64,000 nt of DNA from Streptomyces canus. GTDB lineage: Bacteria > Actinomycetota > Actinomycetes > Streptomycetales > Streptomycetaceae. Made by a program: the position numbers and the translations under genes. The notes beneath the pieces were generated by a model. The model had not been told where the DNA came from. It made no database searches and saw nothing but the letters and a program-made list of their open reading frames with translations. The DNA is taken from positions 4,588,001-4,652,000 of the forward strand of contig NZ_CP107989.1 in assembly GCF_041435015.1 (NCBI RefSeq), read 5' to 3'. Positions 49,635-51,815 of the stretch are shown one piece after another; the stretch's first letter is position 1; each line of letters starts with the position of its first letter.

Positions 49635-50699
49635 GTGACCGATGACACGACGGCCGGGCCGACGGGCGACTGGAGCGGCTGGCGGGCCGCCGCCGAGGCC
49701 GCCCTCTACGGCCCTGAGGGCTTCTACCGCAGGCCGGAGGGCCCGGCCGGGCACTTCCGTACGTCCGTGCACGCCTCGCCGTTGTTCGCCGAGGCCGTGG
49801 CCCGGCTGCTGTGCCGCATCGACGAGGCACTCGGGCGGCCCGCACGGCTCGACTTCGTCGACATGGCCGCGGGCCGGGGTGAGTTGGCCACCGGCGTCCT
49901 CGCCGCCCTGCCCGCCGACCTGGCCGCCCGCACGCGCGCGTACGCCGTCGAGATCGCCGACCACCCCGAGGGCCTCGATCAGCGGATCGAGTGGCTGACC
50001 GGGCCCCCGAAGAACATCACCGGGCTGCTGTTCGCCAACGAATGGCTGGACAACGTACCCGTGGAGATCGCCGAGACGGACTCATCGGGCGTCCCACGCC
50101 AGGTGCTCGTGCGGCGGGACGGTCGCGAGCGTCTCGGGGAACCGGTCGCAGGGGCGGAGGCCGAGTGGCTGGACCGGTGGTGGCCGCTGCCGCCCGAGGA
50201 GGGGCTGCGGGCCGAGATCGGCCTGCCCCGGGACGAGGCGTGGGCGTCGGCGGTCGCCGCGGTGGAGCGGGGGCTCGCGGTCGCCGTCGACTACACGCAC
50301 ACGGCAACCTCACGCCCCCTGTTCGGGACCCTCACCGGATTCCGCGAAGGGCGCGAGACGGCACCCGTACCGGACGGGTCGTGCGACCTCACGGCCCATG
50401 TGGCGCTGGACGCGTGCGCGCTCCCCGGAGGGCGCGTGCTGACCCAACGCGACGCGCTGCGCGCCCTGGGCCTCGCGGGTGCACGCCCCCCGCTCACGCT
50501 CGCGTCCACGCGGCCCGCGGAATACGTCCGCGCCCTCACGCGTGCCGGAGAGGCCGCCGAACTCACCGCGGTGGGCGGCCTCGGAGACTTCGGCTGGCTG
50601 CTCCAGCCCGTGGGCCTGTCCGCAGGACTTCCGGACGCACCCCTCGACGGGCCGCCCGCCGACCTACTTGTCGATGTCCCCGACCACGAAGAACAGTGA
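49635..50699 (+). CDS. MidA/NDUFAF7-type SAM-dependent methyltransferase (DUF185)
   Basis: Protein of 354 aa from GTG 49635 (TAGCCT 6 nt upstream). DUF185 features: a long N-terminal cap with ALYGPEGFY and HFRTSVHASPLFA, motif I FVDMAAGRGELATGVL, LLFANEWLDNVPVEI (the family's A-N-E-x-x-D-x-x-P motif) and the VAVDYTHT strand. The human member NDUFAF7 dimethylates an arginine of complex I subunit NDUFS2. Here the gene overlaps, tail to tail by 36 bp, a gene for the bacterial counterpart of that subunit, which makes a similar role plausible. Confidence 0.85.
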   Translation: MTDDTTAGPTGDWSGWRAAAEAALYGPEGFYRRPEGPAGHFRTSVHASPLFAEAVARLLCRIDEALGRPARLDFVDMAAGRGELATGVLAALPADLAARTRAYAVEIADHPEGLDQRIEWLTGPPKNITGLLFANEWLDNVPVEIAETDSSGVPRQVLVRRDGRERLGEPVAGAEAEWLDRWWPLPPEEGLRAEIGLPRDEAWASAVAAVERGLAVAVDYTHTATSRPLFGTLTGFREGRETAPVPDGSCDLTAHVALDACALPGGRVLTQRDALRALGLAGARPPLTLASTRPAEYVRALTRAGEAAELTAVGGLGDFGWLLQPVGLSAGLPDAPLDGPPADLLVDVPDHEEQ

Positions 50700-51815
50700 T
50701 CCCAGGATCGCCACCATGTCCGCGACCAGCGTGCCCGGCAACAGCTCGACGAGGGCCTGGATGTTGTTGTACGAGGCCGAGCGCAGCTTCAGCCGGTACG
50801 GGGTCTTCTCGCCCTTGCTGACGAGGTAGTAGCCGTTGATGCCGAGCGGGTTCTCGGTCCACGCGTACGTGTGCCCCTCGGGCGCCTTCAGGACCTTGGG
50901 GAGCCGCTGGTTGATCGGTCCGGGCGGCAGCTCGGCGAGCCGGTCCAGGCAGGCGTCGGCGAGGTCGAGGGCGTTGTGGGTCTGCTCCAGGAGGACCTCG
51001 AAGCGGGCGAGGCAGTCGCCCTCCTCGCGCGTGACCACCTTCAGCGTGTCCTGGAGCTCTCCGTAGCCGAGGTACGGCTCGTCGCGGCGCAGGTCGAAGT
51101 CGACGCCCGACGCACGCGCGATGGGCCCGCTGACGCCGTACGCGTGGACGGCCCGGGGCGCGAGGACGCCCACGTCCCGGGTGCGGCCCCGGAAGATCTC
51201 GTTGCCGAGGACCAGGTCGTCGAAGCGGTCCATGCGCGAGCGCACGGCGGAGACGGCGGCACGCGCGCGCGTGGACCAGCCGGCCGGCAGGTCCTCCTTG
51301 AGGCCGCCGACGCGGTTGAACATGTAGTGCATCCGGCCGCCGGAGACCTCCTCCATGACGTTCTGGAGGACCTCCCGCTCCCGGAACGCGTAGAAGACCG
51401 GGGTGATGCCGCCGAGCTCCAGCGGATACGAGCCCAGGAACATCAGGTGGTTCAGCACCCGGTTGAGCTCGGCGAGCAGCGTGCGCGTCCACACCGCGCG
51501 CGTGGGGACCTCCATGCCGAGCATCCGCTCCACGGCGAGGACCACGCCCAGCTCGTTGGAGAAGGCCGACAGCCAGTCGTGGCGGTTGGCGAGCATGATG
51601 ATCTGGCGGTAGTCGCGCGCCTCGAAGAGCTTCTCCGCACCGCGGTGCATATAGCCGATCACCGGCTCCGCGCTCATGATGCGCTCGCCGTCCAGGACGA
51701 GCCTCAGGCGCAGCACACCATGGGTGGACGGGTGCTGCGGCCCGATGTTGAGCACCATGTCGGTGCTCTCCGCGGCGCCGCCGATGCCGACCGTGGTCTC
51801 CGTCGTAGGAGTCAT
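50664..51815 (-). CDS. Orphan NuoD-like (49-kDa) subunit, NuoD2
   Basis: NADH dehydrogenase I chain D-like protein of 383 aa, start ATG 51815 after GGGGAG. IGPQHPSTHGVLRLRL, NRVLNHLMFLGSYPLELG, SGGRMHYMFNRVGGLKED and the C-terminal SLFFVVGDIDK are family blocks. Ungapped alignment to the bovine 49-kDa subunit keeps the quinone-site His (His32) and the methylated Arg (Arg58 in YMHRGAEK) but replaces the quinone-binding Tyr108 by Trp81 and Asp160 by Glu133. No other nuo genes are nearby. Probably not a standard quinone-reducing subunit. Confidence 0.9.
   Translation of the reverse strand: MTPTTETTVGIGGAAESTDMVLNIGPQHPSTHGVLRLRLVLDGERIMSAEPVIGYMHRGAEKLFEARDYRQIIMLANRHDWLSAFSNELGVVLAVERMLGMEVPTRAVWTRTLLAELNRVLNHLMFLGSYPLELGGITPVFYAFREREVLQNVMEEVSGGRMHYMFNRVGGLKEDLPAGWSTRARAAVSAVRSRMDRFDDLVLGNEIFRGRTRDVGVLAPRAVHAYGVSGPIARASGVDFDLRRDEPYLGYGELQDTLKVVTREEGDCLARFEVLLEQTHNALDLADACLDRLAELPPGPINQRLPKVLKAPEGHTYAWTENPLGINGYYLVSKGEKTPYRLKLRSASYNNIQALVELLPGTLVADMVAILGSLFFVVGDIDK

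Follow-up and report, generated by a model that had tools for sequence, protein, structure and literature searches.

The window analyzed here, a 64,000-nucleotide stretch of the Streptomyces canus genome, carries two overlapping genes: one for a methyltransferase of the MidA/NDUFAF7 type (DUF185, COG1565), related to the human enzyme that acts on the counterpart of NuoD, and another, nuoD2, for a relative of NuoD, the D subunit of complex I. In the reading that we favor and regard as likely, NuoD2 belongs to an 11-subunit complex I, the adjacent MidA-type enzyme dimethylates Arg58 of NuoD2, and a quinone is reduced at a site that has been rebuilt around a tryptophan.

According to this reading, NuoD2 would be the D subunit of the Q module in a NuoABCDHIJKLMN complex without the reduced nicotinamide adenine dinucleotide (NADH) module, NuoEFG; both gene content and an arginine–threonine swap between subunits point in this direction. 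The DUF185 enzyme would be the complex's own MidA, and the activity of NDUFAF7 together with gene linkage suggests dimethylation of Arg58 in newly made NuoD2 as its most likely activity. Arg58 should lie next to the N2 iron-sulfur cluster, where its dimethylation would let NuoD2 dock onto NuoB2 and would set the environment of N2. Electrons would come from a donor other than NADH, perhaps ferredoxin, and the complex would pump protons. Judging from the catalytic residues that remain and the substitutions that go together, quinone would be reduced at a site in which tryptophan replaces the headgroup tyrosine and a nearby proton-path aspartate has been lost.

The overlapping genes and a second complex I

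The methyltransferase gene occupies positions 49635–50699 of the window on the forward strand (354 amino acids), and nuoD2 positions 50664–51815 on the reverse strand (start ATG at 51815; 383 amino acids). Open reading frames and Pfam searches agree with the preliminary description of this DNA, which had reported a tail-to-tail overlap of 36 bp (50664–50699) between a DUF185 gene and a NuoD-like gene. The methyltransferase matched Methyltransf_28/DUF185 (PF02636; E = 1.4e-17; 64.4 bits against a cut-off of 23.3), and NuoD2, in a longer upstream reading used for the scan, matched Complex1_49kDa (E = 1e-69). The overlap is incidental and not general, because such gene pairs occur in several orientations and only seven of the 13 tail-to-tail pairs measured share exactly 36 bp, the remaining six being separated by gaps of 32–173 bp. 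The genome (10.7 Mb) has a single DUF185 gene and two NuoD loci. Streptomyces proteins are the closest database matches to NuoD2, led by one from S. canus at 98%.

The methyltransferase conforms to the MidA fold. It contains the glycine motif of the S-adenosylmethionine site (AAGRGEL) and, at positions 50037–50060 of the forward strand, the motif NEWLDNVP, which includes Glu136 and Asp139. These two residues, Asp219, and Asp251 are invariant in all 93 relatives aligned.

NuoD2 aligns without gaps to the 49-kDa chains of solved complex I over the region of interest: residues 32, 58, 81, and 133 fall on the His, Arg, Tyr, and Asp of those chains, and on positions 38, 64 (Thr), 87, and 139 of Thermus Nqo4. 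Arg58 (reverse-strand codon 51642–51644, within HRGAEK) is the equivalent of bovine NDUFS2 Arg85 and is the proposed methylation site. The quinone histidine, bovine His59, is retained as His32 (51720–51722, reverse strand). Trp81 (51573–51575, reverse strand) stands where the quinone tyrosine is found in bovine (Tyr108) and Thermus (Tyr87) proteins, and Glu133 (51417–51419, reverse strand) occupies the position of Asp160. Near the C-terminus, where the offset to Thermus numbering is +26, Phe375 (50691–50693, reverse strand) aligns with Nqo4 Asp401. The preliminary description had thus placed Arg58, Trp81, and His32 correctly. Its remark that canonical actinobacterial NuoD has threonine in place of Arg58 is also borne out in this genome, whose main NuoD reads HTGIEK there and has Tyr and Glu at the Trp81 and Glu133 positions. 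The same protein disposes of Glu133 as a change specific to NuoD2: the substitution that the description had singled out is present, but the main NuoD carries Glu as well.

In profile searches, NuoD2 matched PF00346 and scored 375 with PRK06075, above the cut-off of 360; its scores with TIGR01962 (386) and PRK12322 (388) lie below the respective cut-offs of 459 and 522. The protein has the quinone histidine and lacks the quinone tyrosine (Tyr87/108/144). Because Trp81 replaces that tyrosine, we class NuoD2 as a variant of NuoD and not as a canonical NuoD. A large subunit of [NiFe] hydrogenase was rejected: the two Cys-x-x-Cys nickel motifs are absent, and the 383-residue translation has just two isolated cysteines.

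A second nuo cluster, nuo2, lies about 300 kb from nuoD2, at roughly 4333–4344 kb of contig 1. It comprises genes for A2, B2, C2, H2, I2, J2, K2, L2, M2, and N2, and has none for D, E, F, or G; Pfam confirmed complex I domains in B2, C2 (30-kDa family), H2, J2, K2, L2, and M2. Taken together, nuo2 and nuoD2 provide A, B, C, D, and H–N without E, F, and G, which is the content of an 11-subunit complex. The identity of the NuoB partner is indicated by an intersubunit switch described for Yarrowia, in which the D subunit has Arg and the B subunit Thr, and for Thermus, in which the arrangement is reversed (PMC8042128). Among 155 NuoD–NuoB pairs, we found 123 with Arg-NuoD and Thr-NuoB, 21 with Thr-NuoD and Arg-NuoB, and three with Arg-NuoD and proline in NuoB; a further eight Arg-type pairs were missed by the search expression, and of these seven visibly have Thr and one is cut off. 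No Arg–Arg or Thr–Thr pair occurred among the 155. In the genome of the window, the residue is Arg in NuoB1 and Thr in NuoB2, and therefore NuoD2, with its Arg, fits NuoB2.

We searched 34 genomes in which nuoD is detached from the operon (33) or adjoins nuoC alone (genome G021), and each has a NuoB2-like protein (66–100% identity). Among 14 controls whose NuoD is of the Thr type alone, 13 reached no more than 55% identity to NuoB2, the exception being genome G279 at 81%. The Thr is present in every one of the 30 NuoB2-like loci that were fetched, G279 contributing one. Gene content and the swap identify NuoD2 as the missing D subunit of nuo2. The preliminary description had called it an orphan made outside any nuo operon. 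As to gene position, the term is apt, the gene being detached; as a statement on function, it fails, since this genome has nuo2 at another site and nuoABCDHIJKLMN is present in relatives.

Two side observations concern NuoB2 and its neighbors. In locus L295 of G279 (9448–10959), the lone NuoB2-like gene, of the Thr type, is divergent from an adjoining Streptomyces-type DUF185 gene; the 19-kb stretch holds no other match to the nuo queries, and the genome has no NuoD2 match. In the Streptomyces locus L007 (11139–12860 and 12869–13597), NuoC2 has a long low-complexity tail rich in Pro, Ser, and Glu, and NuoB2 a tail of Ala-Pro-Ala-Ser repeats.

A tryptophan branch of NuoD and its quinone site

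NuoD2-like proteins, defined by at least 45% identity to NuoD2, were found in 126 of the 396 Actinomycetota genomes that made up our sample. The list held 150 NuoD places, weaker matches falling outside it, and 141 were read: all 126 at or above 45% identity and 15 of the 24 at 40–44%. The tyrosine position is Trp in every one of the 126 proteins, and the Arg58 position is Arg in all 125 that were readable there; because of this constancy, the pattern is more than chance. By comparison, all 15 sequences fetched from the 40–44% band combine Arg with Tyr. The best 120 proteins from each of two database searches (240 in all) included 237 that were readable, all with Arg and Trp. In a FastTree tree, drawn open, the Trp types make up one branch of 126 rows with a local support of 99. 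A scan of named genomes, of which the best 80 matches were kept, gave Trp-type loci labeled Actinomycetota or its classes, with the exception of L157, which bears an Acidobacteria label and is possibly a mislabeled metagenome-assembled genome; those labeled as other phyla were all of the Tyr type.

The tryptophan is accompanied by other changes. The position of Thermus Leu62 is Met in 125 of 125 Trp-type proteins. At the Asp401 position, 124 readable Trp types have Phe (90), Tyr (25), or Asp (9), the keepers of Asp falling into one six-row branch (G057, G177, G304, G331, G045, and G340) and one three-row branch (G006, G021, and G036). Among the 15 sample rows of the Tyr type, 13 keep Asp401, as do the main NuoD and all 29 named Tyr-type loci. 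A NuoH arginine, replaced by His, Leu, Phe, or Met, is retained in none of 75 aligned Trp-type cases vs. 37 of 42 aligned others; a NuoB methionine, changed to Ile or Gly in most, is retained in seven of 99 vs. 35 of 40.

The site tyrosine adjoins the headgroup of the inserted quinone (PMC11522691, PMC6168287), and simulations cited in PMC8042128 give it a role in proton transfer. An altered quinone site in NuoD2 is likely, because Trp81 stands at the tyrosine position and Asp401 is mostly lost too. Proton delivery would have to differ as well, since tryptophan cannot act as the tyrosine acid does and the aspartate is mostly gone. The cysteines that bind N2 in NuoB2, both 4Fe-4S motifs of NuoI2, and the Glu and Lys of NuoL2 and NuoM2 are present; because these and the quinone histidine remain, quinone reduction has probably been preserved. 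The preliminary description had proposed altered or no quinone chemistry, and only the first half of that proposal finds support.

On a different view, menaquinone is not what the Trp-type complex reduces: electrons would go to some other acceptor, a polyketide quinone for example, or the ability to reduce quinone would have been lost. The substitutions just described lend themselves to this idea, given that Trp is universal in the family, that Phe or Tyr replaces Asp401 in 115 of 124 readable proteins, and that the Leu62, NuoH, and NuoB positions change along with them. By its distance from the C-terminus, moreover, Asp401 corresponds to Paracoccus Asp404, the residue from which a proton-conducting network of water molecules leads toward the quinone site (PMC11522691), and Streptomyces spores can reportedly switch to a polyketide quinone (PMC9927152). 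Two complexes could also share the labor, as 107 of the 126 carriers have a Thr-type NuoD in addition. Set against all this are the retention of His32, the N2 ligands, and the pump residues of NuoL2 and NuoM2. Family f3, whose 14 genomes may be those of mycobacteria, has no Trp-type NuoD. The polyketide quinone pathway itself was described in Mycobacterium (PMC9927152). A polyketide quinone is a possible acceptor in Streptomyces and would not explain the whole Trp family. We consider the loss of menaquinone reduction unlikely.

More broadly, the data invite the proposal of a branch of complex I in Actinomycetota that lacks the quinone-site tyrosine, in which most members keep their own methyltransferase to tune N2 and quinone is protonated without a tyrosine. 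The branch would be marked by linked changes in NuoD (Asp401 to Phe or Tyr, Leu62 to Met), NuoH, and NuoB. Since a Thr-type NuoD is found in 107 of the 126 carriers as well, it would usually exist beside an ordinary complex I, and its acceptor may possibly be something other than menaquinone. We advance this wider proposal tentatively.

The methyltransferase and its likely target

The DUF185 gene and the Trp-type NuoD occur together far beyond the window. Of the 126 Trp-type genomes, 82 gave a DUF185 match, vs. 19 of the 270 others (Fisher p = 6e-34). A count by family, tallied by hand, is the fairer test because genomes within one family are not independent; it gave 24 of 30 vs. seven of 45 (p = 3e-8). 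For these comparisons, Arg-type NuoD was recognized by a pattern that misses some proteins (e.g., those of G052, G064, and G186); all genomes at or above 45% identity, plus G311, were added by hand, and those classed as Arg-type outside that set are pattern matches only.

Gene order tells a similar story. The run nuoABCDHIJKLMN was present in 69 of 125 Trp-type loci fetched from other genomes, and E, F, or G directly followed D in none of the 125. In 22 of the 69 full runs, DUF185 comes next after nuoN among the genes searched for (nuo subunits and DUF185), usually at a distance of about 8 kb from nuoD, and Acidimicrobiia are among the named examples. Four nuoN–DUF185 loci have the gene 10–14 kb from nuoD, with other genes between. 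In 40 loci, counting the window, nuoD lies apart from the nuo genes, and in 33 of them DUF185 is in the same stretch (within 1 kb in 20, within 7 kb in all). For the other seven, DUF185 is on another contig (three) or was not found (four, in genomes that are 61–89% complete). Detached nuoD occupies two or three separate positions in the tree, and its pairs with DUF185 are tail to tail or in the same orientation, the latter being frequent in other actinomycetes. A dedicated partnership between the putative NuoD methyltransferase and NuoD is well supported by these patterns of distribution and linkage, and the preliminary description, which had proposed a dedicated enzyme for an Arg-containing NuoD, anticipated it: the two genes are not distributed independently.

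The operons offered further observations. Loci L150, L157, and L198 have an H–N gene set directly upstream of the run from ABCD to N and the methyltransferase, as if two complexes stood in tandem. In the Arg/Tyr-type nuo operons L134, L142, L143, and L146 (family f27), matches appear in the order A B C D H I F G I J K L M, which puts F and G behind NuoI and a second NuoI match behind them. In the 11-subunit nuo operon L216, of an Elusimicrobia genome with an Arg/Tyr NuoD, a DUF185 match lies upstream of nuoA, which suggests that linkage between nuo and DUF185 is not confined to Actinomycetota.

Several results weigh against a strict version of the proposed mechanism. The methyltransferase diverges much faster than NuoD (about 20–33% vs. 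50% identity across the range). No DUF185 match was obtained with profile hidden Markov models in 44 of the 126 Trp-type genomes, one of which, G307, has the gene near nuoD according to tblastn. Most of these genomes belong to one 39-row clade (three with DUF185 and 36 without; elsewhere, 79 of 87 have it). The 43 readable proteins from genomes without a match all retain Arg58; for this reason, the arginine does not need the DUF185 enzyme everywhere. Conversely, DUF185 is present in 10 of 85 genomes with Arg-type NuoD by pattern and no Trp type, numbers that rule out a tight dependence between the arginine and DUF185, and in at least three genomes in which only Thr-type NuoD was found (G092, G279, and G208). 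The 19 DUF185 genomes outside the Trp type comprise these 10, two of Thr type by pattern (G092 and G279), and seven with neither pattern; among the last, five are incomplete (64–83%) and come from otherwise Trp-type families, G186 is Arg-type, and G208 is Thr-type. Finally, the search expression for the pump residues of NuoN2 gave no match, from which no verdict was drawn. On balance, what the preliminary description observed is confirmed and its interpretation partly supported, the strict gene link being weakened by the 44 genomes without a DUF185 match.

The arginine persists in the DUF185-poor clade, and E. coli likewise has it, in unmethylated form; on these grounds the residue has a role of its own, to which methylation would be added. 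E. coli was not among the control genomes with DUF185.

These same results could mean that the methyltransferase does belong to the complex and modifies something else, e.g., NuoB2, NuoC2, or an assembly partner, leaving Arg58 unmodified. Such a scheme would accommodate the three DUF185 genomes with only Thr-type NuoD, the NuoB2-like gene beside a DUF185 gene in G279, and the arginine that persists where DUF185 is missing. It sits poorly with the 33 of 40 detached nuoD genes that have DUF185 nearby and with the S. canus genome (G000), the detached-nuoD genome whose nuo2 cluster was read, in which the sole DUF185 gene adjoins nuoD2. The known substrate of the family, moreover, is the D subunit (PMC3829151, PMC9006661). 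We judge another target to be improbable. The adjacency might instead be left over from an old operon, without any connection in function, both genes descending from an arrangement with DUF185 after nuoN; this is very unlikely, as the closeness persists across orientations (in our notation D mt<, mt< D, and MT D) and in two or three tree positions. We reject NuoD2 as an alternative D subunit of the main complex I, an idea that could appeal to NuoE, F, and G genes having been seen only in the main cluster (no whole-genome search for others was made) and that is ruled out by the swap, the required combination of NuoD2 (Arg) with NuoB1 (Arg) occurring in none of the 155 pairs.

Elsewhere in the window, a LuxR-type response regulator and a histidine kinase (DUF7134, HisKA_3) are encoded at 47561–49549, on the other strand beside the methyltransferase gene. 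An Rfam search of positions 46000–54000 returned no match.

Comparison with known systems

Both nuo2/nuoD2 and the methylation of NDUFS2 by MidA proteins are already known. Streptomyces transcriptome papers list nuo2 (nuoA2, B2, D2, and H2–N2) with nuoD2 as a detached member (PMC3765725, PMC8388888), and this is the same system as the one treated here. The passages on nuo2 in these papers make no reference to the tryptophan, to the methyltransferase, or to the Arg–Thr swap, and NuoC2, present here, is missing from their lists. In the portions of open-licence PubMed Central (PMC) papers that our search covered, we found no account of the Trp family, its DUF185 partner, or their linkage across gene orders.

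The family's significance lies in what it makes testable. With 126 of 396 genomes carrying it, 107 of them beside a Thr-type NuoD, the role of the tyrosine can be tested without engineered mutants, and the roles of both the quinone-site residue and the putatively methylated arginine can be examined in natural variants. Tyrosine-to-tryptophan mutants of Yarrowia have reportedly been studied; our search of open-licence PMC papers found none that describes one.

In eukaryotes, NDUFAF7 dimethylates NDUFS2 during assembly (PMC3829151, PMC9006661), producing symmetric dimethyl-Arg85; the corresponding arginine is dimethylated in Paracoccus and not in E. coli (PMC3750175). Mutating the arginine of the HRG motif in Yarrowia removes N2 (PMC8042128). 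In contrast to these NDUFAF7/MidA–NDUFS2 systems, the partner here would be the Trp-type NuoD of an EFG-less complex from Actinomycetota, the enzyme's gene is linked to nuoD or nuoN, and the modification is putative. The 11-subunit complex I-like enzymes of Bacillota (e.g., Desulfitobacterium, PMC11238625) likewise consist of NuoABCDHIJKLMN without EFG, with menaquinol as a proposed product. Unlike the Trp types, the Bacillota sampled (10 Bacilli and one Clostridia) have Arg and Tyr, and the stretches fetched from them gave no match to actinobacterial DUF185 queries. Thermus complex I resembles the present system in its overall NuoD alignment and differs from it in pairing a Thr-NuoD with an Arg-NuoB and in keeping both Tyr87 and Asp401.

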